This document shows, one piece after another, positions 20,291 through 34,849 of a stretch of 34,983 bases of DNA. Source of the stretch: Bacteroidaceae bacterium (GTDB lineage: Bacteria; Bacteroidota; Bacteroidia; Bacteroidales; Bacteroidaceae). The stretch is taken from positions 1 to 34,983 of the forward strand of contig JAGCDQ010000075.1 in assembly GCA_017651245.1 (NCBI GenBank), given 5' to 3'. The notes beneath the pieces are model-generated. The model had not been told where the DNA came from, made no database searches, and saw nothing but the letters and a program-made list of their open reading frames with translations. Numbering within the stretch: position 1 is the stretch's first letter; every line of letters begins with the position of its first letter. The position numbers and the translations under genes are program-made.

Positions 20291-21403
20291 ATGCAACTTA
20301 AAAAAAACTTTACATACATGCTGCTGTCGGCTTTTTTGCTGACGGCAGCATGCAGTGGTTCTGATGATACCTCCGAAGAGGAGTCTTTTTTTTCGACGGG
20401 GCAGGGCGTTTTTGTGCTGTGTGAAGGTAACTTCAATGCAGGCAATGCTTCGCTGTCTTATTATGACCCCGTGAAGAAGCAAGTGGAGAATGGCGTGTTT
20501 CAACGTGCCAATGGACGAAAATTGGGCGATACGGGACAATCCGTCATTCTGAAGGATGGGACGGCATACATCGCGATAGAGAACTCTGGCATCATCTGGG
20601 GCATTGATGCTGAGACTTTTCGCGTGAAAGGTCAGGTGGAGGCGACAGGAACCCAAATCATCAATCCCCGATATGTGCATTTTGTGAGCGACACAAAAGC
20701 ATACGTGACAGACCTTTATTCACCTTATATCAATATCATTAACCCCAAAACCTTCAAATGGACAGGAGCTATTGCCACTGGACAAGAAGCCAGTCGTGGT
20801 TATTGCTCTACTGAGGAGATGGTGCAGGTGGGGGAATACGTTTACACCAACTGCTGGTCATACAGCAACAAGCTGTTGGTCATCAACACCGAAACGGACG
20901 AGCTGGTGCGTGAAATCACCCTCAGCAGTTGGCAACCCAAGTCGATGAAAGCCGACAAGAACGGCAAATTGTGGGTCATCACCGATGGGGGTTATTCAAT
21001 GGAGGACGACAGTTTTAGTGATAACATTCCGCATCTTTATCGCATCGATGCTGCGACTGGTGCTGTGGAGTTAGACCAAGCCCTCGATTCCGATGAAGCG
21101 AATGTACAGATAGAAATGAACAGCACGAAGGATGTTGTTTACCTGATCAATAACGATATATACCGAATGGGCATCACAGATAGCCATGTGCCTGTACGAC
21201 CTTTCATTGCTGCACCCAAAGATACGAATGGTCGTCGTCACAAGTTGTATGGCATTGGCGTGAATCCTCATAATGGTGACATTTATGTGGGTGATGCTGT
21301 GGATTATAGTCAGTCGGGAGTGGTGTATCGCTATGATGTCAATGGTGCGTTGATAGACCAGTTCCGAGTGGGCATCAATCCCAATCATTTTGCATTTAAA
21401 TAG
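20291..21403 (+). CDS. btuG: BtuG-like beta-propeller cobalamin-binding lipoprotein
   Basis: A 370-residue surface lipoprotein with lipobox LTAAC (C21) and SGSDDTSEEE after it. The mature part has repeated propeller blades: GVFVLCEGNFNAGNASLSYY, YIAIENSGIIWGIDAETF, AYVTDLYSPYINIINPKTF, YVYTNCWSYSNKLLVINTET, LWVITDGGYS, VVYLINNDIYRM and DIYVGDAVDYSQSGVVYRYD. This pattern matches BtuG (YncE-like/DUF5074), the lid protein of the BtuB receptor, which captures cobalamin and cobinamide at the cell surface with very high affinity. The nearby BtuB-like receptor supports the call. The next gene begins 8 bases after the stop. Confidence 0.85.
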   Translation: MQLKKNFTYMLLSAFLLTAACSGSDDTSEEESFFSTGQGVFVLCEGNFNAGNASLSYYDPVKKQVENGVFQRANGRKLGDTGQSVILKDGTAYIAIENSGIIWGIDAETFRVKGQVEATGTQIINPRYVHFVSDTKAYVTDLYSPYINIINPKTFKWTGAIATGQEASRGYCSTEEMVQVGEYVYTNCWSYSNKLLVINTETDELVREITLSSWQPKSMKADKNGKLWVITDGGYSMEDDSFSDNIPHLYRIDAATGAVELDQALDSDEANVQIEMNSTKDVVYLINNDIYRMGITDSHVPVRPFIAAPKDTNGRRHKLYGIGVNPHNGDIYVGDAVDYSQSGVVYRYDVNGALIDQFRVGINPNHFAFK

Positions 21404-21411
21404 TAGAAGAA

Positions 21412-22950
21412 ATGAAGAAATACGGTGTTTTATGTCTGATGGCATTGTTGCTGATTCTGACAGCATGCAGCGACTATGAGGGTGACAAACAGCAAGGCCT
21501 GTTGCCTACCATCACGTTTCCTGTGGCATCTGCACGCTATCGTATGGAATTGGGTAGTGAGTTGGAAATCGTGCCCAAATGTGGCAATGTGGACGAGCAA
21601 ACCACTTACGAGTGGAGCATGGACGGCACCGTGATAGGAACAAAGGCATCCTACACCTTTGTGGCAGAGACTTTGGGCGACTATTACATCAAGGTGAAAG
21701 TCACCAATGCATTCGGCACAACGGAGGATGAATTGAAGATTACGGTCATCGAGGTGGATAAACTCTCGGAAAACGAATCAGCTGAGGGACTCTACACTCC
21801 CAACGATACAGCATTCGCTTGGAAGTTCCCTTGGACGAGCATCAACATTCCATCGGGCAGAACCATCAAGGTGAAAGCCTACATGATCGAGAATGATTTG
21901 GATGGTACCTACACCTGGACACTTGATGGTGTGGATGTTGCGGGGCCATATCGCCTTCAAGAGGTGTCTGATGTGTCGTATGTGTTTGACACAGACGGAC
22001 TTTCGCAGGGACATCATACTTTGTTGCTGACGATGAAGAATGACGATGGTGAGGTGAGCCAGTCGTTCACCCTTCAGGTGTGTCCTGCTGAGGGTTCTTA
22101 TCGTCGTGCTGTCACTACTGAAAGCCAGTCGTTGGTCAATAAAGTTTATGAGTTTATGCCTGCTCCTGGACATCAGGTGAATGGCTATACGATTGTAGGC
22201 GATATGATTCGTGATGGTGCTTCGATGGAAGAGGTTTGTGATACGGTGTTGAAGCATTGGAAGAAAGTGTGGTCTGTCTCGTTGGGTGCTCAAGGAGGTT
22301 ATGTGATTGCTGGATTTGACCATAGTGTAGAGAACTCAGGTGGCTACGACCTTGCCATCAAGGGTAATCCTTTCAGTTATCAGTCAGAACCAGGCATCAT
22401 CTGGGTGAGTCAGGACGTGAATGGTGACGGATTGCCCAATGATCCTTGGTATGAGTTGGCAGGTAGTGAATACGGTACGGAAAACAGCACAATGGAGTAT
22501 GCCATCACTTACTATAAGCCCAAGACTCCTCGTTCCCATACAGCATGGAAAGACTGTTTTGGGGCTACGGGCATTGTTCCCTATATGTCGCTTTGGAATA
22601 CGCATGCCTACTACTGGCAGGATTGGGTAGGGGGCACAGAGCACACTTACTTTGGCACCCGATTGAAAGACACCCACACCTATGAGGGTGGTTATACGAA
22701 TGAACCTCCTTATGCGTGGGGATATGCCGATAACCAAGGTTCCGACTATGTCAGAAATAAGGACTTTGATGCAGCCATTGCGATGGGTTACTACAAAATC
22801 AGCAATGCCAAGACTTGGGATGGCAAGGATGCCAACTTGCAGTATATCGATTTCGTGAAGGTGCAGACAAGTCAGACGGGCTATTCCCCTAATTTGGGCG
22901 ACATCTCCACAGAGGTGTATGGCATCTGGGATTGTCATATCAAGAAATAA
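21412..22950 (+). CDS. PKD-domain surface lipoprotein of the cobalamin operon
   Basis: A 512-residue lipoprotein; lipobox LLILTAC places the lipidated cysteine at 19, followed by SDYEGD. Residues about 30-113 form a PKD/Ig-like domain (TTYEWSMDGTVIGTKASYTF, VKVTNAFGTTEDELKITV). A second Ig-like region spans about 130-225 (YTWTLDGVDVAGPYR, TLLLTMKNDDGEVSQSF). The C-terminal 280 residues are a separate domain with GYVIAGFDHSVENSGGYDL, a DVNGDGLPNDPWYELAGSEY segment that resembles a calcium-binding loop, and conserved-looking aromatic stretches. It stands between BtuG-like and BtuB-like genes, 6 bases before the latter, and so is probably part of the outer-membrane cobalamin capture complex. Its exact role is unknown. 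Confidence 0.8.
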   Translation: MKKYGVLCLMALLLILTACSDYEGDKQQGLLPTITFPVASARYRMELGSELEIVPKCGNVDEQTTYEWSMDGTVIGTKASYTFVAETLGDYYIKVKVTNAFGTTEDELKITVIEVDKLSENESAEGLYTPNDTAFAWKFPWTSINIPSGRTIKVKAYMIENDLDGTYTWTLDGVDVAGPYRLQEVSDVSYVFDTDGLSQGHHTLLLTMKNDDGEVSQSFTLQVCPAEGSYRRAVTTESQSLVNKVYEFMPAPGHQVNGYTIVGDMIRDGASMEEVCDTVLKHWKKVWSVSLGAQGGYVIAGFDHSVENSGGYDLAIKGNPFSYQSEPGIIWVSQDVNGDGLPNDPWYELAGSEYGTENSTMEYAITYYKPKTPRSHTAWKDCFGATGIVPYMSLWNTHAYYWQDWVGGTEHTYFGTRLKDTHTYEGGYTNEPPYAWGYADNQGSDYVRNKDFDAAIAMGYYKISNAKTWDGKDANLQYIDFVKVQTSQTGYSPNLGDISTEVYGIWDCHIKK

Positions 22951-22956
22951 TTCCGA

Positions 22957-24954
22957 ATGAGGTGGTTGTTTCCCATATTCTGCTCGATGTCCTGTCTGCT
23001 GATGCAGGCACAGGACGTGGTGCATCTGGACGATGTTCAGGTGGTGGCACATCGTCGCCTCAAGGATGTGGGTGTGGAGATGACCAAACTCGACACGATG
23101 GTGCTGCATGAGAATATCTCTTTATCGATGGCAGACATTCTGACGAAGCACTCCACCGCTTTTGTGAAGAGTTATGGTCGTGCCACCGAATCGCTGGTGG
23201 AGTTTCGGGGTACATCGCCCTCTCATACACAGGTGACTTGGAACGGGATGCGCATCAACTCGCCCATGTTGGGCACACTCGACTTCTCCACCGTCCCTGC
23301 CTATTTCATAGATGAGACGCGTCTCTATCATGGAGCCTCCTCCATCAATCTGACGGGTGGCGGTTTGGGAGGTGCTGTTGAGATGGTGAACATCCCTGTC
23401 GAGAAAAAAGGGTGGGGTATGCAGTTTGTGCAGGGCATTGGTTCGTTCGATACCTACGACGATTTTCTTCGTCTCACCTACAAGAACCAACGCCTCACCT
23501 TTTCCACACGAGTCGTCTATTCCACCTCCGACAATGACTACAAATACACTAACTTCGACAAGAAGACGGATGTGTATGACCAGCAGGGCAATTGGTTGAC
23601 TTCCTATCATCCAGAGGAACGCAACAAGAGTGGTTATTTTGACGATTTCCATGCGTTGCAGGAACTCTACTACGATGCAGGCAAAGGTCATCAGTTGGGT
23701 GCATCCGTCTGGCTGACGCATTCCAAACGTGGATTGCCCTTCTTGAGTGTGGATTATAAGGATGACAGCGATTTCAAGAACGAGCAACGCAACAACACCT
23801 TGCGTACAGTCCTTTCGTGGGATATCCTGAGGGAAAAGACCAAGTGGGCAATGAAGGCAGGTTTTTCCTATGCAGATATAGGTTATGAGTACTTCACCAC
23901 ACGACAGGAGATGAAGACTTCCATCACCAGCTCACGCAGTTACTCCAACATGGCTTTCCTTTCCGCTCATGCTGATTGGATGCTCTCGTCACAGTTCATG
24001 CTGATGGGAGGCTTGGATGTGTATGAAACCCATGTGAACAGTCACGACCGCAGTCCTTTCCATATCGGCAAGAATTTCGACAAAGGGCGTCCTGAGTATC
24101 ATGCTGATGTGCAAGCCCGTTGGCGACCTGTGGAACCCTTCTCTTTGGCGGCAGTGGTGCGTGAGGAGGTGTATAAAGACGATTGGGTGGCACCCATTCC
24201 TGCCCTCTTTGCTGATTTGATTCTATGGAAACCTTGGAACGTGGTGCTGAAAGCCTCTGTGGCACGTAATTACCGCTATCCCACGATGGACGATCTCTAC
24301 TTCCAGCCAGGAGGCAACCCCGACCTGCGTCCCGAGAAAGGCTTCACGTATGATATGGGTGTGGAATTTGCCGTGAAGAAGGCACGTTGGACATTGACGG
24401 GGAATGTGACAGCCTTCGATTCCCACATCAAGGACTGGATTCTTTGGACGCCCAACACCAAAGGTTTTTGGGAACCTTCCAACGTGAAGAAGGTGCATAA
24501 CTACGGAGTGGAATGTTCGGTGGATGGTAGTTGGCTGATGGCAAAAGACCTGAAACTGAGCCTTGCCACCAACTTTGCTTGGACGCCCTCCAAGAATGTA
24601 GGTGAGCAGGTGAATGATAACGATGCCAGTTATGGGAAGCAATTGTGCTATGTGCCCAAGACCTCAGCCAATATCAATGCGCGGCTTCAATGGCGCACTT
24701 GGATGCTTGCTTATCAGTGGAGCCACTACTCCGAACGCTACACCACCACCAGCAATGAAGTCAACTACATCACAGGACGCCTGAAACCCTACTACATGAC
24801 GGATATCTCTCTGGAGAAGATTTTCCGTTGGCATTGGATGGAGTGTGCGGTGAAAGGAGTGTGCAACAACCTCTTCTCCACTCAGTACGTCACCGTTCTG
24901 TCACGTCCCATGCCTCGTCGCAACTACGAAATCTATCTGACCATCAAACTATAA
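22957..24954 (+). CDS. btuB: TonB-dependent cobalamin receptor, BtuB-like
   Basis: A 665-residue outer-membrane receptor. A signal peptide (MRWLFPIFCSMSCLLMQAQD) is followed by a TonB-box-like LDDVQVVAHRR. The plug domain has LSMADILTKHSTAFVKSYG, ATESLVEFRGTSPSHTQVTW and GAVEMVNIPVEK. The 22-stranded barrel follows, with YRYPTMDDLYFQPGGNPDLR (about 428-447) and an aromatic C-terminal strand MPRRNYEIYLTIKL. Length and motifs match BtuB-type receptors that take up cobalamin with BtuG and ExbBD-TonB energy. The position between BtuG-like and BtuF-like genes supports cobalamin as substrate, though siderophore receptors share the fold. Confidence 0.88.
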   Translation: MRWLFPIFCSMSCLLMQAQDVVHLDDVQVVAHRRLKDVGVEMTKLDTMVLHENISLSMADILTKHSTAFVKSYGRATESLVEFRGTSPSHTQVTWNGMRINSPMLGTLDFSTVPAYFIDETRLYHGASSINLTGGGLGGAVEMVNIPVEKKGWGMQFVQGIGSFDTYDDFLRLTYKNQRLTFSTRVVYSTSDNDYKYTNFDKKTDVYDQQGNWLTSYHPEERNKSGYFDDFHALQELYYDAGKGHQLGASVWLTHSKRGLPFLSVDYKDDSDFKNEQRNNTLRTVLSWDILREKTKWAMKAGFSYADIGYEYFTTRQEMKTSITSSRSYSNMAFLSAHADWMLSSQFMLMGGLDVYETHVNSHDRSPFHIGKNFDKGRPEYHADVQARWRPVEPFSLAAVVREEVYKDDWVAPIPALFADLILWKPWNVVLKASVARNYRYPTMDDLYFQPGGNPDLRPEKGFTYDMGVEFAVKKARWTLTGNVTAFDSHIKDWILWTPNTKGFWEPSNVKKVHNYGVECSVDGSWLMAKDLKLSLATNFAWTPSKNVGEQVNDNDASYGKQLCYVPKTSANINARLQWRTWMLAYQWSHYSERYTTTSNEVNYITGRLKPYYMTDISLEKIFRWHWMECAVKGVCNNLFSTQYVTVLSRPMPRRNYEIYLTIKL

Positions 24955-24966
24955 AAGAAACGCCTT

Positions 24967-26079
24967 ATGAATAAATATCTCTATCTTCTCATTGGCACAT
25001 TTCTGCTACTGTGTTCGTGTGGGGGCAACACCACTTCTACCTTGGAAGGGGAGGGCGACACCATTCCCATGCAGTATGCCAAGAACATCACGATGGTGCG
25101 CTATGGCGATTGTGTGAAGGTGGAACTCGCGAATCCTTGGGGTGAAGGACTGCTCGGTTCTTACATCTTGGTTCCCTCTGATTCCGAACAATCTCAAACC
25201 TCAAACCTCCAATCTCAAACCATTCTTGTTCCTCTGAAGAACGCCTTGGTCTTCACCGCCGTGCATTGTGGATTGATCTGTGAATTCGGGATGGAGGAGA
25301 GCATAGGCGGTGTGTGTGAGAAGGAGTACATTCATGGACTCACCAAGGAGGTGGTGGATTGCGGCAATGGTATGTCGCCCAATCAGGAGCGCATCATCAA
25401 GCTCCATCCTGATGCGATGTTGGTGTCTCCGTTCGAGAGCAACACAGGGCATGATAAGTTGGGGCAACTCGGCATACCGATTGTGGAATGTGCTGAATAC
25501 ATGGAACCTACGGCTTTGGGGCGTGCAGAGTGGATGAAGTTCTATGGCATCTTGTTTGGCAAGGAGAAAGAGGCGAATGCGATGTTCGAGGCATTGGTGG
25601 CTCGCTACGACAGCTTGAGTGCCTTGGTGAAGAACTCCGACAAGCGTCCTCGCATCCTCTCCGAAGAGCTGTATGGTAACGTGTGGTATCAGCCCGGCGT
25701 TCACAGCACCATCGGTCAACTCTATGCTGATGCAGGGGCACAGACAGCGTTTCCTGAGTACACGCAGAGTGGTTCCGTGCCACTGTCGGTCGAGCAAGTG
25801 TATGCCACTGCTCACGATGCCGATGTTTGGTTGATGCGCTACGATTCTGACGCCACCATGAGTCTTGCCGAACTGGGTGCCCAAGCCGATGTCTATCCCC
25901 GTTTCGAAGCCTTCAAGAAGGGCAATGTATGGGGTTGCAACACACGCACCTCTTACTTCTACGAGCGTTCACCCTTCCATCCCGACCGCATGCTCTCCGA
26001 CATCATTCAGATCACCCATCCTGAGATCTCGCTCCAAGAGCCCATGTACTTCTACAAGAAACTTGGTGCTAAACAATAA
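24967..26079 (+). CDS. btuF: Cobalamin ABC transporter binding protein, BtuF-like
   Basis: A 370-residue lipoprotein (MNKYLYLLIGTFLLLCSCGG; cysteine 16 or 18 lipidated). The two-lobe helical-hinge fold of class III binding proteins is shown by ALVFTAVHCGLICEFGMEES, VVDCGNGMSPNQERIIKLHP, DAMLVSPFES, KLGQLGIPIVECAEYMEPT and WMKFYGILFGKEKEANAMFE. It delivers cobalamin to the BtuCD importer in the periplasm; siderophores or heme remain possible by fold alone. Four heptanucleotide repeat units (25192-25219) encode the SQTSNLQSQT stretch (about 76-85) in a region before the first ligand-binding lobe. Downstream comes the BtuC-like permease, with more repeat units in the gap. No ATPase follows. Confidence 0.87.
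   Translation: MNKYLYLLIGTFLLLCSCGGNTTSTLEGEGDTIPMQYAKNITMVRYGDCVKVELANPWGEGLLGSYILVPSDSEQSQTSNLQSQTILVPLKNALVFTAVHCGLICEFGMEESIGGVCEKEYIHGLTKEVVDCGNGMSPNQERIIKLHPDAMLVSPFESNTGHDKLGQLGIPIVECAEYMEPTALGRAEWMKFYGILFGKEKEANAMFEALVARYDSLSALVKNSDKRPRILSEELYGNVWYQPGVHSTIGQLYADAGAQTAFPEYTQSGSVPLSVEQVYATAHDADVWLMRYDSDATMSLAELGAQADVYPRFEAFKKGNVWGCNTRTSYFYERSPFHPDRMLSDIIQITHPEISLQEPMYFYKKLGAKQ
25192..25219. repeat. Four-unit heptanucleotide repeat inside btuF
   Basis: TCTCAAA, CCTCAAA, CCTCCAA, TCTCAAA in tandem, in the same family as at 7257-7326. It encodes SQTSNLQSQT in frame. Confidence 0.8.
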
Positions 26080-26080
26080 A

Positions 26081-26094
26081 CCTCAAACCTCAAA
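26081..26094. repeat. Heptanucleotide repeat between btuF and btuC
   Basis: CCTCAAA twice, then CCCCAA up to the btuC ATG at 26100. The repeats occupy the whole space between the btuF stop and the btuC start, where a ribosome-binding site would lie. Confidence 0.7.
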
Positions 26095-26099
26095 CCCCA

Positions 26100-27098
26100 A
26101 TGAAACTCCGCATCTCTCTACTGATTATAGGTGTTGTGGCACTCTTCGTCCTCAACCTTTTCATGGGTTCCGTCCACATCGACCCCTCTGAGGTGTTCCA
26201 GACCTTGCTTCATGGTGATTCAGCCAACGAAGCCATTGCGTATATCATTTTGGGTTCGAGACTTCCCACTGCACTCACGGCGATGCTGGCTGGTGCAGGA
26301 CTTGCCACCGCAGGTCTTCTTCTCCAGACCTCTTTCCACAACCCGCTGGCTGGTCCTTCCATCTTGGGTATCTCCTCGGGTGCCAACCTCGGCGTGGCGA
26401 TTGTGATGCTTTCATTTGGCGGTACCATCACGGCAGGACTCTATTCTTGGAGCGGCTATCTTGCCATCGTGGGTGCAGCCTTCTTGGGTTCCCTGCTCAT
26501 CATGGGCTTGCTCCTGCTGTTCTCGTCGTTGCTGAAGAACAACCTCATGCTGCTCATCACTGGTATCATGATGGGGTACATCACCTCCTCGCTCATTTCC
26601 CTGCTCAATTTCCTGGCATCGGTGGAGAACATCCAGAGTTTCCTCATTTGGGGCATGGGCAACTTCAACAGCGTCTCCATGCAACAGATGCCCATCTTCG
26701 CTTCCATGTGCCTCATCGGTCTCTTCCTTGCCCTCTTGCTGATGAAGCCCCTCAATGCCATCCTCTTGGGTGAGTCGTACGCCACCAACCTTGGCATTGA
26801 CATCCAGCGCACCCGCAATCTCCTTTTGCTTGCCACAGGCTTGCTCACCGCTGTCATCACCGCCTATTGTGGACCTGTCGCCTTTCTCGGATTAGCCACC
26901 CCCCATGTGGCGTTCCTCCTGTTGGGCACCTCCAATCATCGTGTGCTGCTGCCTGTCACCATGCTGACCGGAGCCGTCTTGGCACTCCTTTGCAATCTCC
27001 TTTGCACCCTGCCATCCACCACGGTCATCCCTCTCAACGCCGTTACCCCCATTCTCGGCGCTCCCGTCATCCTCTACATCATTCTCCGCCGCCGCTAA
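26100..27098 (+). CDS. btuC: Cobalamin ABC transporter permease, BtuC-like (FecCD family)
   Basis: A 332-residue inner-membrane permease with about ten hydrophobic helices. FecCD signatures are present: SRLPTALTAMLAGAGLATAG, NPLAGPSILGISSGANLGVA, WGMGNFNSVSMQQMP, ESYATNLGIDI, CGPVAFLGLATPHVAFLLLG (the ATPase-facing region) and NAVTPILGAPVILYIILRRR at the end. It would form a dimer with an ATPase partner and BtuF. The ATPase gene usually follows, but the next 1.2 kb contains only repeats and no Walker motifs. It is last in the operon, ended by a hairpin at 27160. The RLPR motif is altered to SRLPTAL, within family variation. Confidence 0.88.
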   Translation: MKLRISLLIIGVVALFVLNLFMGSVHIDPSEVFQTLLHGDSANEAIAYIILGSRLPTALTAMLAGAGLATAGLLLQTSFHNPLAGPSILGISSGANLGVAIVMLSFGGTITAGLYSWSGYLAIVGAAFLGSLLIMGLLLLFSSLLKNNLMLLITGIMMGYITSSLISLLNFLASVENIQSFLIWGMGNFNSVSMQQMPIFASMCLIGLFLALLLMKPLNAILLGESYATNLGIDIQRTRNLLLLATGLLTAVITAYCGPVAFLGLATPHVAFLLLGTSNHRVLLPVTMLTGAVLALLCNLLCTLPSTTVIPLNAVTPILGAPVILYIILRRR

Positions 27099-27159
27099 AC
27101 GACATGTTCAGCTAAGACCTCAGTCATCAGACCTCGTCTTCCCTCTCTCCATTTTTTTG

Positions 27160-27181
27160 TTCCCCAATAGGGGAAATTTTG
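27160..27181 (+). terminator. Terminator of cobalamin-uptake operon
   Basis: TTCCCC-AATA-GGGGAA stem-loop followed by ATTTTG, 62 bases after the btuC stop. Confidence 0.55.
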
Positions 27182-27211
27182 TTACCCTATGAGAGAAATA
27201 GTATAAAATAA

Positions 27212-27444
27212 CCTAACAACCTAACATTTGTCCTCAAATGGATTGTGGTTCAGTTAGTTGTCTACGTTAGGTCTTGTGTGAAGACCTAACACAGACCTAA
27301 CACTCACCACATCAGGCAACACTCTGAGGAATATCTATGTGAGATTAAATGTTAGGTCTATGTTAGGTGTTTGGGAAAGACCTAACGTTTCTCAATCCCT
27401 TTGTACATCAGGGTTTGAGGCTTGTCATGTTAGGTTGTTAGGTC
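27212..27444. repeat. Array of GTTAGGTC/GACCTAAC octamers in both orientations
   Basis: GTTAGGTC occurs at 27266, 27351 and 27437, and GACCTAAC at 27283, 27294 and 27379. Partial copies are CCTAAC at 27212 and 27220, GTTAGGT at 27362 and GTTAGGTT at 27429. Some pairs form hairpins, for example GTTAGGTC-N9-GACCTAAC at 27266-27290 and GTTAGGT-N10-GACCTAAC at 27362-27386. Confidence 0.75.
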
Positions 27445-27564
27445 TTTTTGAGAAATACTCTTTTTTTTGTTCCCCCACGAGAAAAAATTTGCTCCCCCGT
27501 GAGAAAAATATTTTTCCCTAACTAGGCAGAAAAAGTGCTTCCCCCTAAGGAAAAATTTTGCAGC

Positions 27565-27594
27565 CCCTAAGGGTAACAAAAATTTCCCTTAGGG
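27565..27594. repeat. CCCTAAGGG/CCCTTAGGG hairpin with related copies upstream
   Basis: CCCTAAGGG at 27565-27573 pairs with CCCTTAGGG at 27586-27594 over 9 bp. Degenerate units of CCCC-rich then A-rich sequence precede it at 27471-27560, including CCTAACTAGG at 27517-27526. Confidence 0.6.
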
Positions 27595-27607
27595 ATTGCA
27601 AAAAAAT

Positions 27608-27640
27608 GCCGACAGCTCTCTTAGGTTTTGCTGTCGGCAA
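27608..27640. repeat. 10-bp hairpin TGCCGACAGC/GCTGTCGGCA
   Basis: A perfect 10-bp stem with a 13-base loop. Two direct copies of GATGCTTTGCCG follow at about 27645 and 27667, the latter ending in a TTGCCG-T-CGGCAA palindrome. Confidence 0.6.
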
Positions 27641-27729
27641 AACGATGCTTTGCCGCCGCCTCTTTGATGCTTTGCCGTCGGCAATTAAAAAACCACCCCT
27701 CTTGGAGTCCGCTTGACACTCTCTGGAAG

Positions 27730-27771
27730 TCCGCTTGGCTCGGACTCCCCTTCCGCTTGGCTTGGACTCCC
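27730..27771. repeat. 20-base direct repeat, period 22
   Basis: TCCGCTTGGCTCGGACTCCC at 27730-27749 recurs at 27752-27771 with one mismatch (C to T). The first copy lies in an AGTCCG-CTTGGCT-CGGACT hairpin with a 7-base loop. Confidence 0.65.
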
Positions 27772-27792
27772 AATAACCTGCCTCTGCTGGAT

Positions 27793-27873
27793 AATAAGCG
27801 TTCCTTATTGAGCAATAACCCACCCTTATTCAGGAATAAGTGCCACTTATTGAGAAATAGTCGTCATCTATTT
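27793..27873. repeat. Array of four 5-6-bp hairpins with 7-nt loops, period about 21
   Basis: AATAA-GCGTTCC-TTATT, AATAA-CCCACCC-TTATT, AATAA-GTGCCAC-TTATT and AAATAG-TCGTCAT-CTATTT follow one another with 3-4 base spacers. The arms are nearly constant and the loops differ. The spacers allow alternative pairings (TTATT-spacer-AATAA). Confidence 0.8.
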
Positions 27874-28072
27874 GAAAAAAAGATTTAGAAAAATTTGGAA
27901 GATAGGGAAAAATGTTGTTAATTTGCAACCGAGAGAGTGCTCTATGTGCTTTCTGTGCGGTGCTTCGGTGCCGTGCCTTATTGGATAAATAGAAGCGTTA
28001 TGCTCTTTCTTGCAAGCTGAAAACCTAGGAAATTTTCAATCATTGCAAAGAATGTTTTGAGAGGCTCGTGTG

Positions 28073-28255
28073 CTACAGAGGTGCTCTAAAACAAATGAAG
28101 ACGGACATAGCGGCTTCACGCGTTATTGCGTGGAACTGCGTATTGGTAACCATCTTATTTGTTTGGGCAATTCCTAGGGCCTTCAGCTTGAAGATGTGGA
28201 CATACAGTTCCACGCTTCTTGTGTGAATATAATTGCCTTTGTATGGAACTGACAT
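28073..28255 (-). CDS. Possible small protein in gap (weak)
   Basis: A 60-codon open frame on the minus strand. The middle, SVELYVHIFKLKALGIAQTN followed by TQFHAITREA, looks protein-like, with no low-complexity bias. There is no clear promoter or ribosome site, and the same DNA holds inverted repeats (28128-28138 with 28205-28215), so it may equally be a structured RNA or chance. Divergent from the FtsK cluster. Function not recognised. Confidence 0.2.
   Translation of the reverse strand: MSVPYKGNYIHTRSVELYVHIFKLKALGIAQTNKMVTNTQFHAITREAAMSVFICFRAPL
28128..28215. repeat. 11-bp inverted repeat upstream of FtsK cluster
   Basis: GCGTGGAACTG at 28128-28138 is repeated inverted at 28205-28215. 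A nested hairpin CACGC/GCGTG lies at 28118-28132 and CTTCA/TGAAG near 28180-28192. Confidence 0.5.
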
Positions 28256-28321
28256 GGAATGTTGACAGGCTCACACTTCTTTTGTTGTGTTATATATACT
28301 AATAATTTTAAATTAGAATTT

Positions 28322-28630
28322 ATGGAAGATACTTTTTATTTATTGATGCTGAGACTTCTTTCTGATTCAAAAAAATTTGAAGCATTCAAAGATTGTCTTT
28401 TACAATTACCTGAGAGTATAAAGGATAATCCAGAAATAGGACGGCTTCTCAGTTGTCCCAATTATGATGACCTAGACTTGTTCAAAGACTCTTTCACTTC
28501 CCTGAACGAAATACAACAACATATCATTATTAAACTAATAATGCACCTTAAACACAACGGACAAATAGATGGTGCCATTCGTGTTATTCAGCAATATATA
28601 AAAACTAAAGAAGAAGAAAATATAGACTGA
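28322..28630 (+). CDS. Small acidic helical protein, first gene of FtsK cluster
   Basis: A 102-residue protein from the ATG at 28322; an earlier in-frame ATG at 28259 adds residues lacking similar composition. It is soluble, mostly helical by pattern and acidic: MEDTFYLLMLRLLSDSKKFE, CLLQLPESIKDNPEIGRLLS, then IQQHIIIKLIMHLKHNGQID and a charged end. Not recognised. Its A+T-rich sequence matches the next gene, 16 bases away on the same strand. A weak TAATTTTA box with TTTG 18 bases upstream (28281-28310) could be its promoter. As first gene of the cluster it may be regulatory or a small component. Confidence 0.6.
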   Translation: MEDTFYLLMLRLLSDSKKFEAFKDCLLQLPESIKDNPEIGRLLSCPNYDDLDLFKDSFTSLNEIQQHIIIKLIMHLKHNGQIDGAIRVIQQYIKTKEEENID

Positions 28631-28646
28631 AAATACTTCAATAAAT

Positions 28647-29795
28647 ATGGCAAAGAACATAACATCAATAAAGGATTTAGTCATACAGTTTATGACTAAT
28701 GGTAAAGAAATTGAGAGCAAGGCTGAGAAAGGTGATTCGGAATCCTGCTTTCAAATGGGTATGTCTCATTTACTTGGCATTAATACATCTATAGATTTTG
28801 AGAAAGCTGCTCAATACTTTGGAGATAAATCTTTGGCTGATGATCCAGATGCCAATCGTTTATTAGGTTTTATTGCAGAATGTGAAGGAAAGTTTGGGGA
28901 GGCATTTCAGTATTATGCTAAGACGGGAAAATCTACAAGATCATATTTGCAAAAAGTATATGAGGAAAGAGGGAATCTGCAAAGCTATCTAAAAAAGTTA
29001 AATCTTCCCGACATATTCCTCAATAAGGAAATCACAGCAATTTTATATGATTATATAAAAGATGGTTCCCCGATTCTGCCTAAAATAAAGATTGCATATA
29101 TATGTGAAGACGAACAAACATTTTTAAAAGAAATTCAGGCACTTGTAGAGGGTGGGGATTTGTTCTCGGCTAAAAGATGGTTGCAAATTGGTAATGTTGG
29201 TGTGGAGAATCCTTTGTTCGCCACTATTGAGAAGAAATCGATAGAATTAATGATGGGCTCAAATCCGCCTGAGAAGTTTGATGTGATTGTTGTTGATGGA
29301 AGTTCTTTGGTTTCAGATTTGGAAAAATCATCTTCTTCTAATGAGATAAAGTCTGTATGTGATGAGGCTTCAAAAATGTGTAAAAAAGGATGGTGCGAGA
29401 AAGTGCCCCCAATAATAGACTCATATAAAAGGGCGTTTGAACAGGAAGAAGCAGAACGTAAAAGGAGGGAAGCAGAACGCAGAAAAAAGGAGGAAGAAGA
29501 GGAACGCAGAAGGAAAAAGGAAGAGGAGCTCAAAAGGAAAAAAGAAGAGGAGGAACTCAGAAAGAAAAAAGAGGTGGAACGTCTAAGAGAACAAAACAGG
29601 AGAGCAATGCGTGTTTTCGACATATTTATGGTTGTCGGATATATCGGTTTCTTATTGTGGTTTACACATCTTTTCGATGATAATGGGGAAATTAGTATTC
29701 CTGGAATTCTCGCCTCCCATTTTATATGTTGTATTCCCTTCGTCTTCATTTGGTTGGTAATAAGTAACAATATAAAGAAAAGATTTGATTTATAA
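28647..29795 (+). CDS. Sel1-like, coiled-coil, two-TM protein
   Basis: A 382-residue protein. Residues 20-110 resemble Sel1/TPR-like repeats (AEKGDSESCFQMGMSHLLGI, FEKAAQYFGDKSLADDPDAN, GKFGEAFQYYAKTG). The middle is helical and unassigned. Residues 262-320 are an uninterrupted E/K/R coiled coil. Two hydrophobic helices follow (about 324-341 and 352-374), ending in a short basic tail (NNIKKRFDL). No signal peptide. The topology suggests a cytoplasmic N-terminal body tethered to the inner membrane by a C-terminal hairpin. In the cluster it is the only protein with membrane segments, so it is the natural anchor for the soluble FtsK-like ATPase that follows 33 bases later; that is inference. The gene is notably A+T-rich. 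Confidence 0.75.
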   Translation: MAKNITSIKDLVIQFMTNGKEIESKAEKGDSESCFQMGMSHLLGINTSIDFEKAAQYFGDKSLADDPDANRLLGFIAECEGKFGEAFQYYAKTGKSTRSYLQKVYEERGNLQSYLKKLNLPDIFLNKEITAILYDYIKDGSPILPKIKIAYICEDEQTFLKEIQALVEGGDLFSAKRWLQIGNVGVENPLFATIEKKSIELMMGSNPPEKFDVIVVDGSSLVSDLEKSSSSNEIKSVCDEASKMCKKGWCEKVPPIIDSYKRAFEQEEAERKRREAERRKKEEEEERRRKKEEELKRKKEEEELRKKKEVERLREQNRRAMRVFDIFMVVGYIGFLLWFTHLFDDNGEISIPGILASHFICCIPFVFIWLVISNNIKKRFDL

Positions 29796-29828
29796 AAAGG
29801 TAAGAAAATATCACAAATAGAGATTAAG

Positions 29829-32498
29829 ATGAAAACAATAAAGCAAATCAAATTGCTGGTTGAAAATATAATTACAGAATCATGTAACATTCCAGCCCCC
29901 AATAGTAAAGAGAAGAATAGTGGGAAGAAAACCGTTGACAGCAAGAGCCAAGAGCTAATCAATGCTGTTAAGGATAATTATCTGCCCCTTTTCCAGTTTA
30001 ATATCGACGCACCTTCATCAGAAGCGGCTCAGGCAGTCTTTAGTCAAATCGCAGGAAACACGCAAAGAGCGTCCTTCGTGTCCTATTTGCCTGATGGTCA
30101 GCATACGACAGACAAAATTGGTGATCTGGCTTTCGAAACACCCACTATTTTGGAATGGCAAAACAGCGATGTCGGTCAAAACTTTGTCATCAACTATACA
30201 AGCAAGACGGCGAGCAAGGCTCAGAATTGTTTGAACCAACTCGTTGTCAATATGCTGTTGTCACTTCCTGGCAATAGTTTCAGGCTCCATTTCATTGATC
30301 TCTCGTTCTCGGCTCAAGCATCATTCCTGACAAGAAACTTGGACGACAAGTTATATGATAAGCTTGTCAGTAGTCCTAACGACTGGTATCAGTTGAAAGA
30401 AAGCCTTCGCGAAAAGATGGCGAAGTCTCTGGAGAATTACGGCAATGTGGTGAAATACAATGAGAGCAAGGGCAAGGTTGAAGTACCATATGATGTGGTG
30501 GTAATTACTGACTACCAGAAATGCATCAATGACATGCGTGACATAGATGCCCTGTTTGAGAATGGTCATAAGGGCGGAATCTATTTCATCCTGATGAACA
30601 ATCAGGACTATAAGAGTGATATGGACACGCTCATGGCACTGCAGAATTTCTATCAAGTGCTGGATGCGGAGAAACTGGGAGATTACTCCAAGAGTGCCAT
30701 GATTCGTTGTACCCCTATTCTTGACAATCCTATCTTGGCAAAGGCTTGTTTCAACTATGTCAATAAGGGTGCAGAACTTCCACAGGTGGCAGCAGCGAGT
30801 GTGGATCATGACAAGATGCTGAAATCGGGCTTTGAGTCTATTGACAAAGCGATGGTTATCCCTGTTGGCTCAACAGACAAGGGTGAGCTGGTAGATTTCA
30901 CGCTCGATACCGTCAGCCATACACATTGCTTTATTATTGGTCAATCAGGTACTGGTAAGTCTGTGTTCCTGCATGATGTCATTATTGGTGCAATGGCTAA
31001 ATATTCACCAGACGAACTTGAGTTGTATTTGATGGACTTCAAGATTGGCGGTGTGGAGTTTAACCGCTACAAGGACGAGAAGCATGTCAAGGCTTTGCTG
31101 GTTGACAATTCGGATATTCAGATAACCTTGGAAATCCTAAGAGAAATCAGCAACAAGATGCGTGAACGCGGCAAGTTGCTCCGTTCGAGTGGCGTTTCCA
31201 ATATCGTGGAATACAACTCCATCAATACCGATAAGAAAATGCCACGAATTGTGGTTATCGTTGATGAATGTCATGTGATGTTCCCAACGATGAACAGCAA
31301 AGAGGCAAAACTCTATCGTGAGATTTCAGAGATTCTACAGAAGATAGCCAAGGAAGGTCGTAGCCAAGGCGTGCATTTGGTGCTGGCTACACAAACCATT
31401 GCACAGGCAGACATATCAAGCGAAATACTGAACAATATCTCAGACTTCTATTTGCTGAAGTGTGCGCCAGGCGATTCGGAAAGACTGGTGATGGGTTCAG
31501 CTGAAACAACGAACCAACTGAAGACGGGTCAGGTGCTTCATCATGACATTGATAGCGATGTGGTGTTCAAGTCAACCTATCTGCCGACGAAGGAGGCTCT
31601 TGAAGTGATCAAGAAGATTAACGAGAAGGCAAAGGACTTCGAGAATGAGCAGTTCTACTTTGTCGGCTCTCAGATATTCAAGATTGATGATGAGGTGAAG
31701 AGCCTGCTTTCTGGACAAGTCAATTCCAAAGCTTCAATTGCCTTTGGACGTTCGATTGACACGAAGATGGAACCTGTCATCATCCCATTGCGCAACGAGT
31801 ATGCCGACAACGTGATGCTGTTTGGCATCAATGATGAGGAACAGGTGTCAAGAACGATGCTGGCTTCCCTTCAGAGTCTTAGGGCGTCGAACGAGTCTGT
31901 TAAGATCAAGGTCATCAATTGCCTGCCTGCAGAGCAAGTGAAGACCATCAAGAAACTCCAAGATTATGCCAAGAAGGGGGAGATAGAGATGCTAAGCCCC
32001 CAAACCTGCGGATCAGAATTGCAGCGTCTTGCTAATTCTATTAAAAACAGGGATGCAGAACAAACAGTTCTGTATGTTCTGGGACAGGAACGCTTCAGAG
32101 AGTTGCGTATGGATATGGAAATATCCGTGGGCGATAGCAAAGACGATGCAGGTGATTTTGGATTCTCTAGTGATTTCTCGTCATCTGATTCTTCTTTCGA
32201 TAGTTATCAGAAGGCTCTGGGATACATTTTGAAGAATGGCGCAGAAGTGGGTGTGCATGTCATCTTACAGATTGACAAGCCCAAGCAGTTGCTTTTCGCT
32301 GACTATATGTCTTCCAAGGATTTCTTCAACATGTTCCATCATCTGGTGATGCTGAAAAGTGATGAGAATGCCATTATCAACTTCGGACTCAGCGATGATT
32401 TGCAACTGGAGAACCTGTCATCGGACATTGAACGCCTTCGTGCTATTTACTATAATGAGACAAACAACAGCTACACGCTGTTCACTCCTTTCGCATAA
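29829..32498 (+). CDS. FtsK/SpoIIIE-EssC-like ATPase with three tandem domains
   Basis: An 889-residue protein, no membrane helix. The middle domain (about 335-600) is a complete FtsK-HerA ATPase: Walker A GQSGTGKS (371-378), LYLMDFKIGGVEFNRYK (399-415), MRERGKLLRSSGVSNIVEYN (444-463), Walker B IVVIVDE (474-480) and EGRSQGVHLVLATQT (509-523). The N-terminal domain (about 110-310) keeps the fold pattern but has TSKTASKA where Walker A should be and a loose VVVITDY as Walker B. The C-terminal domain (about 640-889) has FGINDEEQVSRT without GKS. Three tandem domains are the plan of EssC/EccC of type VII secretion, which also have TM segments, missing here. It lacks the DNA-binding gamma domain of FtsK. 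It may drive export of the WXG100-like proteins encoded downstream. Confidence 0.88.
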   Translation: MKTIKQIKLLVENIITESCNIPAPNSKEKNSGKKTVDSKSQELINAVKDNYLPLFQFNIDAPSSEAAQAVFSQIAGNTQRASFVSYLPDGQHTTDKIGDLAFETPTILEWQNSDVGQNFVINYTSKTASKAQNCLNQLVVNMLLSLPGNSFRLHFIDLSFSAQASFLTRNLDDKLYDKLVSSPNDWYQLKESLREKMAKSLENYGNVVKYNESKGKVEVPYDVVVITDYQKCINDMRDIDALFENGHKGGIYFILMNNQDYKSDMDTLMALQNFYQVLDAEKLGDYSKSAMIRCTPILDNPILAKACFNYVNKGAELPQVAAASVDHDKMLKSGFESIDKAMVIPVGSTDKGELVDFTLDTVSHTHCFIIGQSGTGKSVFLHDVIIGAMAKYSPDELELYLMDFKIGGVEFNRYKDEKHVKALLVDNSDIQITLEILREISNKMRERGKLLRSSGVSNIVEYNSINTDKKMPRIVVIVDECHVMFPTMNSKEAKLYREISEILQKIAKEGRSQGVHLVLATQTIAQADISSEILNNISDFYLLKCAPGDSERLVMGSAETTNQLKTGQVLHHDIDSDVVFKSTYLPTKEALEVIKKINEKAKDFENEQFYFVGSQIFKIDDEVKSLLSGQVNSKASIAFGRSIDTKMEPVIIPLRNEYADNVMLFGINDEEQVSRTMLASLQSLRASNESVKIKVINCLPAEQVKTIKKLQDYAKKGEIEMLSPQTCGSELQRLANSIKNRDAEQTVLYVLGQERFRELRMDMEISVGDSKDDAGDFGFSSDFSSSDSSFDSYQKALGYILKNGAEVGVHVILQIDKPKQLLFADYMSSKDFFNMFHHLVMLKSDENAIINFGLSDDLQLENLSSDIERLRAIYYNETNNSYTLFTPFA

Positions 32499-32528
32499 AA
32501 GTGTAATAAGCATAAATTTTTTAAGACT

Positions 32529-34043
32529 ATGTATTCAGAACAATTAGAAGAACTTATTTCCTTGGCTTTGGAAGATGGTATTCTTACAGAGCAAAAGAAA
32601 AATTTGATTATCCGTAGAGCGGCGAAGGAAGGGGAAGACGTTGAAGAGGTGATGATGGTCCTTGAAACCAGATTACAAAAGCTTAATCTCGAGCGTACAA
32701 TCGGAAAAAAGACCGTAGTAGAAAAATATATACAGCCATTTGAAGGTTTGGTGGCTAATCTTGAGAAAAATCTGAGAATTCAAAGAGAGAATCCACGGAA
32801 AATTGTTATGACTTTGTGCAATCCAGATGGTTGTTATTTATCCGACAATATGGACATTATTGGTTATGTACCATTCTTTGAAGGAGAAACAATCAATGAT
32901 GAACCATGTTCAATAAATGTTTCATGTGGGTTAAGAATTAGAATTAGTAACTGTGAACTCGATTTATTTGATGGCTCGGATCCTTTGAATAGTACTCATG
33001 ACGAGGAGCCTAAGTTGCAATTAAAAGTGACCTTCTGGGATAATGATGGTTGTTTAGAGTCTTTCAGAACTCTTAAATGCGCTAATATGTTTCGTGAGAT
33101 AAGCCATGAAACGACAGATGGTGATATACTGTATCAATACTTCGTGGACTGTGGTCAGAATGTTAATGAAATGGCATCTGTGTATACAGAAATCCTCACG
33201 AAAGTGTATGGTCTTCAATCAGAAGATGTTAGTATGGATGCTTTATGGACAGGTCTGTTCTCAACAAAATTGATTGACAAGGAAATTACAGACAAGGAAG
33301 ACTTACGCGCTGCTCTAAAAAACTATGGATTGACTCATTACAAGATGCCTCAAATTAATTCCAAAATGTTAGTTCGCGAGGAAATCATTGACGAAATGGA
33401 GGAAATGATAAATGTCTATAATGAAAAATACTCTAAAAGCACATTTATACATTATGATTTAGATAAGGATAAAAGATATCTTATCATGACTGTATTGAAT
33501 GGAGATATGTCTACAAATAAATTGAAGGAGATACAAAGAGCTTTTCAAGTTCAAAAGGCAGAAGAGTACGAAATTCAGATGTTCAATTTGGGACAATTAA
33601 GTTGGAAAGAAGTTTGTGCCGTTGGAGCTATGGACGAAAAAATAGAGGGGAAGGCGTATGTTGCAGATAATGATAAAGAAGATGAGGGACAAGCCATAAA
33701 TAATGATACGGAAGAGAATTTGTATCAGGAGGAATGGCATCATGATGCAGAAGAAGATCTGCAATGTGACACTGATGAAGTTGCCATGATACAGGTTCCA
33801 GAGGAAGTTCTTCCACAAGTGATGAAGATTGTGAAATATTATAATGAGCGTGCGATTAAATGGGGATATGAAGTATTGGAATATGATGATGAATCACACA
33901 CTCTTTCTGGTTCATTTAAGGCAAAAAAGGATGCTGAAAAATCTTCCAGTTTTGGTTTCTGGAACAAAATAAAAGAAGCAGGGAAAAATGCAGACTTACA
34001 AGCAGAATATCAGAAAATTCTCAAATTATGTGGTCTTGATTGA
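32529..34043 (+). CDS. 504-residue acidic protein with TerB/SHOCT-like N-terminus
   Basis: Not recognised as a whole. Residues 1-55 (EQLEELISLALEDGILTEQK, LIIRRAAKEGEDVEEVMMVL) resemble the small helical N-terminal motif often seen in Bacteroidota proteins with TerB-like or SHOCT-like elements. The middle (about 100-330) is mixed alpha/beta without clear motif. Residues about 380-430 are strongly acidic (DNDKEDEGQAINNDTEENLY), probably disordered. The last 80 residues are a small alpha/beta unit ending in FGFWNKIKEAGKNADLQAEY. No signal peptide or TM segment. It is very A+T-rich compared with the ATPase gene. It lies 30 bases after the ATPase stop and 38 before the WXG100-like gene, so it likely acts in the same system, perhaps as an adaptor or chaperone. 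Confidence 0.7.
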   Translation: MYSEQLEELISLALEDGILTEQKKNLIIRRAAKEGEDVEEVMMVLETRLQKLNLERTIGKKTVVEKYIQPFEGLVANLEKNLRIQRENPRKIVMTLCNPDGCYLSDNMDIIGYVPFFEGETINDEPCSINVSCGLRIRISNCELDLFDGSDPLNSTHDEEPKLQLKVTFWDNDGCLESFRTLKCANMFREISHETTDGDILYQYFVDCGQNVNEMASVYTEILTKVYGLQSEDVSMDALWTGLFSTKLIDKEITDKEDLRAALKNYGLTHYKMPQINSKMLVREEIIDEMEEMINVYNEKYSKSTFIHYDLDKDKRYLIMTVLNGDMSTNKLKEIQRAFQVQKAEEYEIQMFNLGQLSWKEVCAVGAMDEKIEGKAYVADNDKEDEGQAINNDTEENLYQEEWHHDAEEDLQCDTDEVAMIQVPEEVLPQVMKIVKYYNERAIKWGYEVLEYDDESHTLSGSFKAKKDAEKSSSFGFWNKIKEAGKNADLQAEYQKILKLCGLD

Positions 34044-34081
34044 ATGTTTTATTTGTATAATCAATAAAAATAAGAAGAACT

Positions 34082-34360
34082 ATGGCAAGTGATGCTGGTG
34101 TAAGAAACATAGAACAGTTGGCTATGTTTGGAAAGAACCTTAAGAGTCTCGGACAGAACATGTATCAAACGATGCAGACGGCGCAGCAGCGTATGAACGC
34201 TGTGTGCGAGGGCTGGCAAGACAAACAGAATGACAAGTTCAGAGAACAATTCAACAAGAGTGTCTTGGAGGTGAAGAAGATGTCGGAACAATTTACGGAA
34301 TATTCAGAATACATCTCCAAGATAACTGCCAAGTTGATGGAGTATCAAGGAATAAAATAA
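34082..34360 (+). CDS. WXG100-like small helical protein
   Basis: A 92-residue protein, close to the usual length of WXG100/ESAT-6 proteins. It is predicted to form two helices (about 8-43 and 50-88) around a turn with CEGWQDKQNDKF (43-54). The Trp at 45 sits at the expected turn position, but the motif is WQD rather than WxG. No YxxxD/E export motif is seen at the C-terminus (TAKLMEYQGIK). No signal peptide. WXG100 proteins are secreted substrates of type VII systems and pair with EssC/EccC ATPases; here an EssC-like ATPase is encoded two genes upstream. Short distance (9 bases) to the next gene suggests the two products form a pair. Confidence 0.78.
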   Translation: MASDAGVRNIEQLAMFGKNLKSLGQNMYQTMQTAQQRMNAVCEGWQDKQNDKFREQFNKSVLEVKKMSEQFTEYSEYISKITAKLMEYQGIK

Positions 34361-34369
34361 ACCTGACGA

Positions 34370-34849
34370 ATGGCAAATTCTGATGTAAAGGTGAGGGAAG
34401 TAAGGCTCTTGGAGTCTTACTCGGAAGCTTATGGGAGATTCTTCGAGTCGAATATACACACAACATATCATCTTGCGGCGGCTCTCGGGTGGAAGTTAGA
34501 TAAGGCGCGAGAATATCTTCATCATATTTCGGATAGTTGTCACTATATTCATTACAAGATGGTGGGTGCCAAAGCTGATGTAGAAGCTTCGATGAGACGA
34601 GGCGGCGGTATGGATGGCAGGGAATTGCAGTATCGTCAAGAGACCTATCAGAAGTTCAAAGCCCTCTACCAGAAAGCTCAACAATATGAAGAGATTGCCA
34701 AAAAGCTTTGCCAAAACATCCAAATTGAAGTGAGGCGTGGTGAAGAGATGTGCAACAGCCAAAGAAACAAAATGGAACAGAATAGAGAGGAAGGGATGAA
34801 CTTTCTCAAAAAGGCTATTTCTGCGTTAAATGAATATAAACAATCATAA
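34370..34849 (+). CDS. Helical protein paired with WXG100-like gene
   Basis: A 159-residue all-helical, basic protein with no signal peptide or TM segment. It begins MANSDVKVREVRLLESYSEA. There are long amphipathic helices (about 7-40, 45-75, 83-150), with HHISDSCHYIHYKMVGAKAD, a RRGGGMDGREL turn and QKFKALYQKAQQYEEIAKKL. Not recognised. Two-helix partners and chaperones are often encoded beside WXG100 proteins in type VII loci, and this protein could be one, or a larger substrate-like relative. It starts 9 bases after the previous stop and ends the cluster. Confidence 0.7.
   Translation: MANSDVKVREVRLLESYSEAYGRFFESNIHTTYHLAAALGWKLDKAREYLHHISDSCHYIHYKMVGAKADVEASMRRGGGMDGRELQYRQETYQKFKALYQKAQQYEEIAKKLCQNIQIEVRRGEEMCNSQRNKMEQNREEGMNFLKKAISALNEYKQS

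Follow-up and report, generated by a model that had tools for sequence, protein, structure and literature searches.

Contig C73 (JAGCDQ010000075.1) of a Bacteroidaceae bacterium was analysed in its entirety, as a window of 34,983 bases from a genome of 2.83 Mb that is 86% complete, and six genes on its plus strand (28322-34849) are the subject of this report. Comparison across loci shows that an ATPase of the EssC/EccC type in which one motor domain, the middle one (D2), is intact, a pair of WXG100-type proteins whose predicted turn carries W-x-D (A in the window and C on contig C54) and a long, putatively helical partner, B, are kept together as a module. Homology to the motor and to the WXG100 proteins of type VII secretion systems (T7SS) is well supported. 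Membership in a canonical T7SS is not, because the tested parts are missing and the turn motif differs. The explanation that we rank first, and to which we give about half of our confidence, is that the module is related to type VII secretion as a minimal and mobile version of it, with a motor that would work on helical protein complexes.

An EssC/EccC-type ATPase beside a W-x-D protein

An earlier note on this DNA had described the product of one cluster gene as an EssC-like three-domain ATPase. In searches with hidden Markov models, the ATPase scored 114.7 bits against EssC (TIGR03928) and 108.4 bits against EccCa (TIGR03924), compared with 43.6 bits against FtsK (NF007615). All three scores lie under the curated cut-offs of their models (778.4 bits for EssC and 509.15 bits for EccC). 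The protein also matched Pfam FtsK_SpoIIIE at 1.4e-25, and a profile search of PDB gave EccC (4nh0) at 2.4e-58, YukB at 1.1e-43 and FtsK at 1.5e-29. By sequence, EssC and EccC clearly outscored both FtsK and HerA. In a tree that included a single, loosely placed EccC of two domains, with canonical EssC and HerA not among its rows, 13 Bacteroidaceae FtsKs were split from the ATPase group at 100/100, and the window ATPase belonged to a Bacteroidales clade of 13 rows, supported at 100/99 (100/98 with EccC removed). An FtsK or HerA identity, which the earlier note had named as one finding that would overturn its assignment, was rejected on the profiles and, for FtsK, also on the tree. The tree further shows two Bacteroidales lineages; because a single clade was not rejected by the approximately unbiased test (p-AU 0.192), we do not claim two separate origins.

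The AlphaFold model of the ATPase aligned with EccC (4nh0) over 719 residues at a root-mean-square deviation (rmsd) of 16.1, and with EssC D2-D3 (4lya) over 489 residues at an rmsd of 5.2. Structure matches were taken from the VIA list, which re-aligns Foldseek's top 1000 chains and lists 50. Among these 50, T7SS ATPases alone covered D1 or D3, whereas FtsK, TcpA and HerA aligned only with the middle domain and its edge. Independent sequence matches for D1 and D3 were sought and none was found, and a profile comparison of D1 with D3 reached a probability of only 8.6%, so that the tandem ATPase domains are predicted by the model only. A Walker A motif is present in the middle domain of all 42 aligned ATPases and is the sole such motif in 41 of them, locus L088 having one further match; the Walker B motif of the window ATPase ends in DE at residues 479-480. 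Profiles, tree and model agree that the protein is an EssC/EccC relative and not an FtsK. The proposed family thus stands, and the three domains stand by the model, with a P-loop in only one of them.

The same note had pointed to a WXG100-sized helical protein with a tryptophan in its turn. This protein, A, scored 27.5 bits against the Pfam WXG100 cut-off of 27.3, which is borderline; in a whole-genome search it scored 26.5 bits, just under the cut-off, and was the only match at E 0.01 or better. AlphaFold predicted a two-helix hairpin (helices 2-42 and 48-91; predicted local distance difference test score 89.4) with W45-Q46-D47 in the turn. Esx-type WXG100 chains occupied Foldseek ranks 1-19 at template modelling scores of 0.74-0.80 and E-values of only 0.018-0.14, and rank 20 was a ROP variant. 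A profile of 29 relatives, compared with PDB sequences, found HP0062 of Helicobacter pylori first (3fx7, 5e-10) and Gram-positive Esx proteins after it, with WXG100 structures ranging from 5e-10 to 3e-8. The W and D of the turn were invariant in all 29 aligned relatives, in none of which the canonical W-x-G takes this place; the 29 are not an unbiased sample, because proteins of this kind had seeded the profile that collected them. Of two further motifs, YxxxD/E did not occur among the C-terminal 35 residues of any of the 29 relatives, and HxxxD/ExxhxxxH occurred in three. These data indicate that A is a WXG100 relative by profile and predicted fold. The helical character and the turn tryptophan were correctly noted, the lack of a WXG100-like fold that the note had listed as a refuting outcome was not what the model showed, and the motif is W-Q-D rather than WXG.

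The recurring module and its possible mobility

The search for relatives of the ATPase covered 101 related genomes, 399 from the family, 395 from across the phylum and the contigs of GTDB genomes. With the source genome included each time, matches were found in 5 genomes of relatives, in 24 of the family and in two across the phylum, the second of these belonging to the same family. Twelve of the 24 family matches, spread over seven genera, had E-values of 1e-77 or lower, and the other 12 (3e-33 to 1e-30) fell with FtsK in the tree; the module is sporadic in the family, at 12 of 399 genomes. From the GTDB contigs, 80 of at least 92 loci were kept.

The module was counted by six-frame searches round 74 member loci, taken from among the matches listed, and round 12 FtsK control loci. 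A or C was found on the same strand within 8 kb of the ATPase in 65 of the 74 loci compared with none of the 12 controls, which hold just 2.2-5.7 kb per side; the A and C frames of the members lay within 4.9 kb. Because the profiles were partly built from the same loci, some of them near-copies, the E-values of these searches are flattered, and the contrast with the FtsK controls is therefore the evidence for the module. It bears out the expectation of the earlier note that the genes would occur together in other genomes. By group, A or C accompanied the ATPase in 14/14 loci of Bacteroidales lineage 1, which includes the window, 4/4 of lineage 2, 35/43 of a Planctomycetes group (Planctomycetes, Verrucomicrobia and Lentisphaera), 7/7 of Proteobacteria and 5/6 others. 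Three of the nine loci without A or C start at the extreme edge of a contig.

The gene order is ATPase-A-B-C in Bacteroidales and A-B-C-ATPase in the Planctomycetes group, where 26 of 43 loci had all three partners and the frame centres were so ordered in 25. Within lineage 1, B was matched in 11 of 14 loci, the window among them, and a separate C frame was present in 10; L010, L016 and L018 had neither, and the C of the window is on another contig. Profile comparison gave a probability of 82% for the B proteins of Bacteroidales against those of other phyla, and of 90% for A against C, values that coiled-coil composition could inflate. In Proteobacteria, B is longer, at 436-521 residues as called.

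A C gene was expected behind B because relatives have it there. The C profile gave one match in the source genome (1.2e-13), on contig C54, where the gene starts 150 bases from the contig end and 16 bases past a 12-base terminal inverted repeat that the window also carries. Its product is 62% identical over 79 residues to the C of L009, a related Bacteroidales operon. The gene behind it encodes an SprT-like peptidase, 65% identical over 139 residues to the L009 copy, which matches the SprT-like Pfam family at 5.3e-10; a gene of this kind lies downstream of the module in genome G025 as well as in the source genome. The inverted repeat is common to the insertion sequence (IS) ends of the window and of C54 (27319-27452, L145). 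Plasmids of Bacteroides, Parabacteroides and Phocaeicola carry stretches like the window end (28 records), one of which overlaps a gene annotated as an IS4 transposase at its end. A target duplication was looked for at the IS ends of C73 and C54 and not found, so that the linkage of the two contigs rests on the gene order of L009. Judged by sequence, the module appears to continue on C54 with C and the peptidase gene.

Possible signs of mobility accompany related loci: L011 has a gene for a Mob_Pre relaxase on one side and one for a tyrosine recombinase on the other, and genes for a VapE-like protein and a resolvase were recognised in the vicinity of L122 and L018, respectively. At the window locus the IS end was the only mobility feature recognised, in a scan that covered part of the window's genes. 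The guanine plus cytosine (G+C) content is 47.8% in bases 1-27115 compared with 31-44% across the six cluster genes, a drop that is consistent with, though no proof of, acquisition from elsewhere.

Membrane parts and proposed modes of action

Profiles for further T7SS parts were run against the source genome, 86% complete as noted. EssB/YukC gave a sub-threshold match only (E 0.023; 13.7 compared with 27.4 bits), and EsaA and YukD gave none. Among the 14 control genomes, each of the three profiles had a single match above its cut-off: for YukD this was in Bacillus subtilis, which was also among the controls giving a match for EssB and EsaA. For EccB and EccD, whose controls were too weak to judge by (silent for EccB, one match below the cut-off for EccD), the source genome gave no match. 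The absence of visible EssB and EsaA, remarked on earlier, persisted in profile searches.

Transmembrane segments were predicted by hydropathy, which is a crude test. Among the 42 aligned ATPases, an N-terminal hydrophobic pair was present only in the Planctomycetes group, in 16 of 18; of the remaining two, one had a single stretch and one had none. The pair was present in none of the 16 aligned Bacteroidales ATPases, and four aligned proteobacterial ATPases had no predicted transmembrane segment. A looser threshold flagged a single hydrophobic stretch inside the ATPase part of L005, L102 and L103, and thereby in L125 and L126, whose ATPases are those of L102 and L103. The 382-residue protein encoded directly upstream of the window ATPase has one hydrophobic stretch above threshold at residue 349 and a second, weaker one by eye, and could be a membrane tether; its relative in L009 is 49% identical over 262 residues. 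TPR or Sel1 proteins adjoin the ATPase in several lineage-1 loci, over the Pfam cut-off in L011, L126 and L128 and below it in L125 and L123. Candidate membrane parts encoded close to L028, L044 and L046, the copies in Phycisphaerae, were set aside because by eye their sequences resemble respiratory-chain proteins.

If the module is a minimal relative of type VII secretion, A and C may assemble into four-helix bundles, either pairing with one another, each with its own kind, or with B. The resulting complex would dock on the ATPase, which would then oligomerise, and D2 would hydrolyse ATP and move the helical complex, perhaps with a passenger, through the ring. In the source genome, the adjoining 382-residue protein might use its hydrophobic hairpin to anchor the ATPase at the inner membrane. 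This scheme is modelled on EccC and EsxB, D3 being the docking domain in EccC. That the helical complex crosses some membrane is a further step, which we consider just as apt to be wrong as right. Export, and the adaptation to a two-membrane envelope that the earlier note suggested, are conjectural. The L125 and L126 operons (TPR protein-ATPase-A-B-C) contained no transmembrane stretch at a threshold of 1.8, with the C of L126 not called, and profile scans of cluster genes recognised no channel or outer-membrane part. In operons of this type, which make up part of the group, a soluble ring could move helical complexes inside the cell, a proposal that we regard as less likely than not; if true, it would make secretion one use of the type VII motor and not the defining one.

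The main rival places the module entirely in the cytosol, as a conflict or stress-response system that secretes nothing. The EssC-like ring and the W-x-D proteins would then act internally and might, for instance, be a regulated ATPase scaffold by which a nuclease or peptidase reaches its target. We take this seriously as a minority possibility. The lack of predicted transmembrane segments in the L125 and L126 operons and in the four proteobacterial ATPases favours it, as does the gene company of the proteobacterial relatives. At L073 (6456-19687) the module is found with vWA, PP2C, kinase, CARF/Card1-like nuclease and SF1 helicase genes, and similar company is seen at L130, on the Caballeronia plasmid pSBC2-5 as annotated, and by eye at L090. 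The SprT-like peptidase gene downstream of the module in two genomes also favours it, and the C-terminal part of the proteobacterial B, by eye, fits the coiled coil-nuclease fusion presented for CoCoNuT systems in the cited sections of PMC11090510. Against it stand the N-terminal hydrophobic pair kept in most Planctomycetes-group ATPases and, in both the window and L009, a neighbour of the ATPase whose C-terminal part includes a hydrophobic stretch. Characterised WXG100 proteins, moreover, are known as T7SS substrates, and no defence phenotype is known to us in the Bacteroidota lineage.

An FtsK/HerA-like DNA translocase, for which the WXG-like proteins would be cofactors in DNA processing, is very unlikely: sequence scores for EssC and EccC are far higher than those for FtsK and HerA, the tree excludes FtsK, only T7SS ATPases among the 50 structure matches cover D1 or D3, and no W-x-D gene was found at any of the 12 FtsK loci. 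The least probable reading is of a decayed or inactive remnant, with an IS dividing C from A and B and the module out of action in the source genome. Matching IS ends do terminate both contigs, but the six reading frames are intact, B stops before the IS, and past the other IS end the frames of C and the peptidase are uninterrupted, with 62-65% identity to L009, the contig linkage itself being a deduction. As a small system in gut-type Bacteroidales, the module allows one to ask whether an EssC-type motor exports Esx-type proteins across a two-membrane envelope or acts inside the cell. Concrete mutants and comparisons are offered by its unvarying W-x-D, by the A-B-C set that recurs with the ATPase and by the lost or separated membrane hairpin.

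Known systems and the surrounding locus

The earlier note had suggested a possibly new system, a view that the literature does not sustain. "Mobile versions of T7SS" in Gram-negative lineages, with Bacteroidetes named, were recorded by Zhang et al. in 2012 (PMC3482391, Table 1, footnote 6), and a close gene set was described in 2024 for CoCoNuT loci (PMC11090510). Because its kind is already in print, in that footnote and in more detail for CoCoNuTs, the module joins a type that was known before; it forms a branch of a group that has been little studied and was glimpsed earlier in Gram-negative bacteria. The cited passages of the 2012 paper give no gene order, B or C partner or W-x-D signature; the module and its spread in the family are set out here, with a WXG-type gene beside the ATPase in all 14 lineage-1 loci among the matches listed and Walker A in the middle domain throughout the alignment. 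In open-licence literature, no paper was found that links WXG100 and type VII with Bacteroidota by that name, and some exist under "Bacteroidetes" together with Gram-negative.

The EssC-like extension of Type III-A CoCoNuTs, as the cited sections present it, has only D2 predicted active, no transmembrane domains, two WXG100-type proteins and a coiled-coil protein (PMC11090510), and the module shares with it the ATPase with a single active-type D2, the two WXG100-type proteins and the coiled-coil protein. CoCoNuTs are described there with TerY-P, nuclease and McrBC parts, whereas the six window proteins had no vWA, kinase or phosphatase Pfam match over the cut-off. Also unlike CoCoNuTs, TPR/Sel1-type proteins adjoin the ATPase in several loci and the SprT-like peptidase gene is present in two genomes. 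HP0062 of H. pylori, reported with WRD in its turn and a gene cluster containing an FtsK/SpoIIIE protein (passages in PMC3397514 and PMC4978471), is the best PDB match to the W-x-D family, but the HP0062/HP0066 pair is from a different phylum. WXG100 genes beside an FtsK/SpoIIIE-family gene are mentioned for Cyanobacteria, Lentisphaerae, Proteobacteria and Verrucomicrobiae (PMC6471051, in a passage citing Sutcliffe 2011), and a passage in a review states that no Gram-negative WXG100/FtsK pair is confirmed as a secretion system (PMC10765036). T7SSb of Bacillota and T7SSa/ESX of Actinomycetota share WXG100-type proteins and an EssC/EccC-type ATPase with the module. Unlike T7SSb, the genome of the module lacks a credible EssB, EsaA or YukD match, and unlike canonical T7SS, its ATPase has one intact P-loop and no N-terminal transmembrane pair, and W-x-D replaces W-x-G.

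The six same-strand genes proposed for the cluster, with gaps of 9-38 bases, were confirmed (gaps of 16, 33, 30, 38 and 9 bases), and the contig stops 134 bases past the last of them. As a gene set, the proposal needs amending at two places. The 504-residue gene between the ATPase and A is missing from L009, whose ATPase is 81% identical, and is probably not core because that is the closest related operon; the set also apparently goes on to contig C54. The 102-residue protein has a 108-residue relative in L009 (blastp, 31% over 85 residues). A promoter of the TAnnTTTG type was sought in 27116-28320, ahead of the cluster, and was not found.

Features of the cluster and contig end in the window, with the basis of each assignment
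Feature	Position	Strand	Basis
Small protein, 102 residues from inner ATG	28322..28630	+	weakly TPR-like: Pfam TPR_19 E 0.0049, below cut-off
382-residue protein	28647..29795	+	weakly Sel1-like start (E 0.07, below cut-off), charged coiled coil, predicted C-terminal hydrophobic hairpin
EssC/EccC-like ATPase, 889 residues, three modelled domains, no N-terminal transmembrane pair	29829..32498	+	profiles, tree, AlphaFold model
Sole Walker A of the ATPase, GQSGTGKS, residues 371-378, middle domain D2	30939..30962	+	motif scan
504-residue protein, no family match	32529..34043	+	best Pfam E 0.13, below cut-off
Protein A, predicted WXG100-type helical hairpin, 92 residues	34082..34360	+	Pfam PF06013 27.5 bits, AlphaFold, Foldseek
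W45-Q46-D47 in the hairpin turn of A	34214..34222	+	alignment of 29 relatives
Protein B, putative helical/coiled partner, 159 residues, own stop codon	34370..34849	+	B profile matches in related loci
IS end, probably IS4 family, where the contig stops	34851..34983	.	similar plasmid stretches, 12-base inverted end

By eye, the start of the 504-residue protein resembles a 272-residue protein of L016 (983-1801). An uptake operon of the TonB receptor/surface protein/Peripla_BP_2/FecCD type, whole or in part, flanks the module in the window (20291-27098), in L124 (14708-19900; also L017) and in L125 (908-5121), which possibly reflects a shared insertion site.

Other relatives have further company. 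In lineage 2, JAB-domain and ThiF/E1-like genes lie behind the W-x-D module of L012 (4723-6866), a possible link to ubiquitin-like chemistry. L088 (5166-17083) of the same lineage has an FHA domain on its ATPase (Pfam 2.6e-18), further FHA genes and a kinase-like gene by eye, and a 164-residue WXG100-like protein with WRG that is below the Pfam cut-off. L092 (6295-19545) is from Hominisplanchenecus murintestinalis, a gut bacterium outside the diderm groups that we take to be a member of the Lachnospiraceae, and has vWA-like, PP2C-like and kinase-like genes by eye together with an SF1 helicase gene. An unannotated 10.4-kb contig from human faeces that is filed as phage (L131, MT836827.1) also encodes a relative of the ATPase, at 124 bits.

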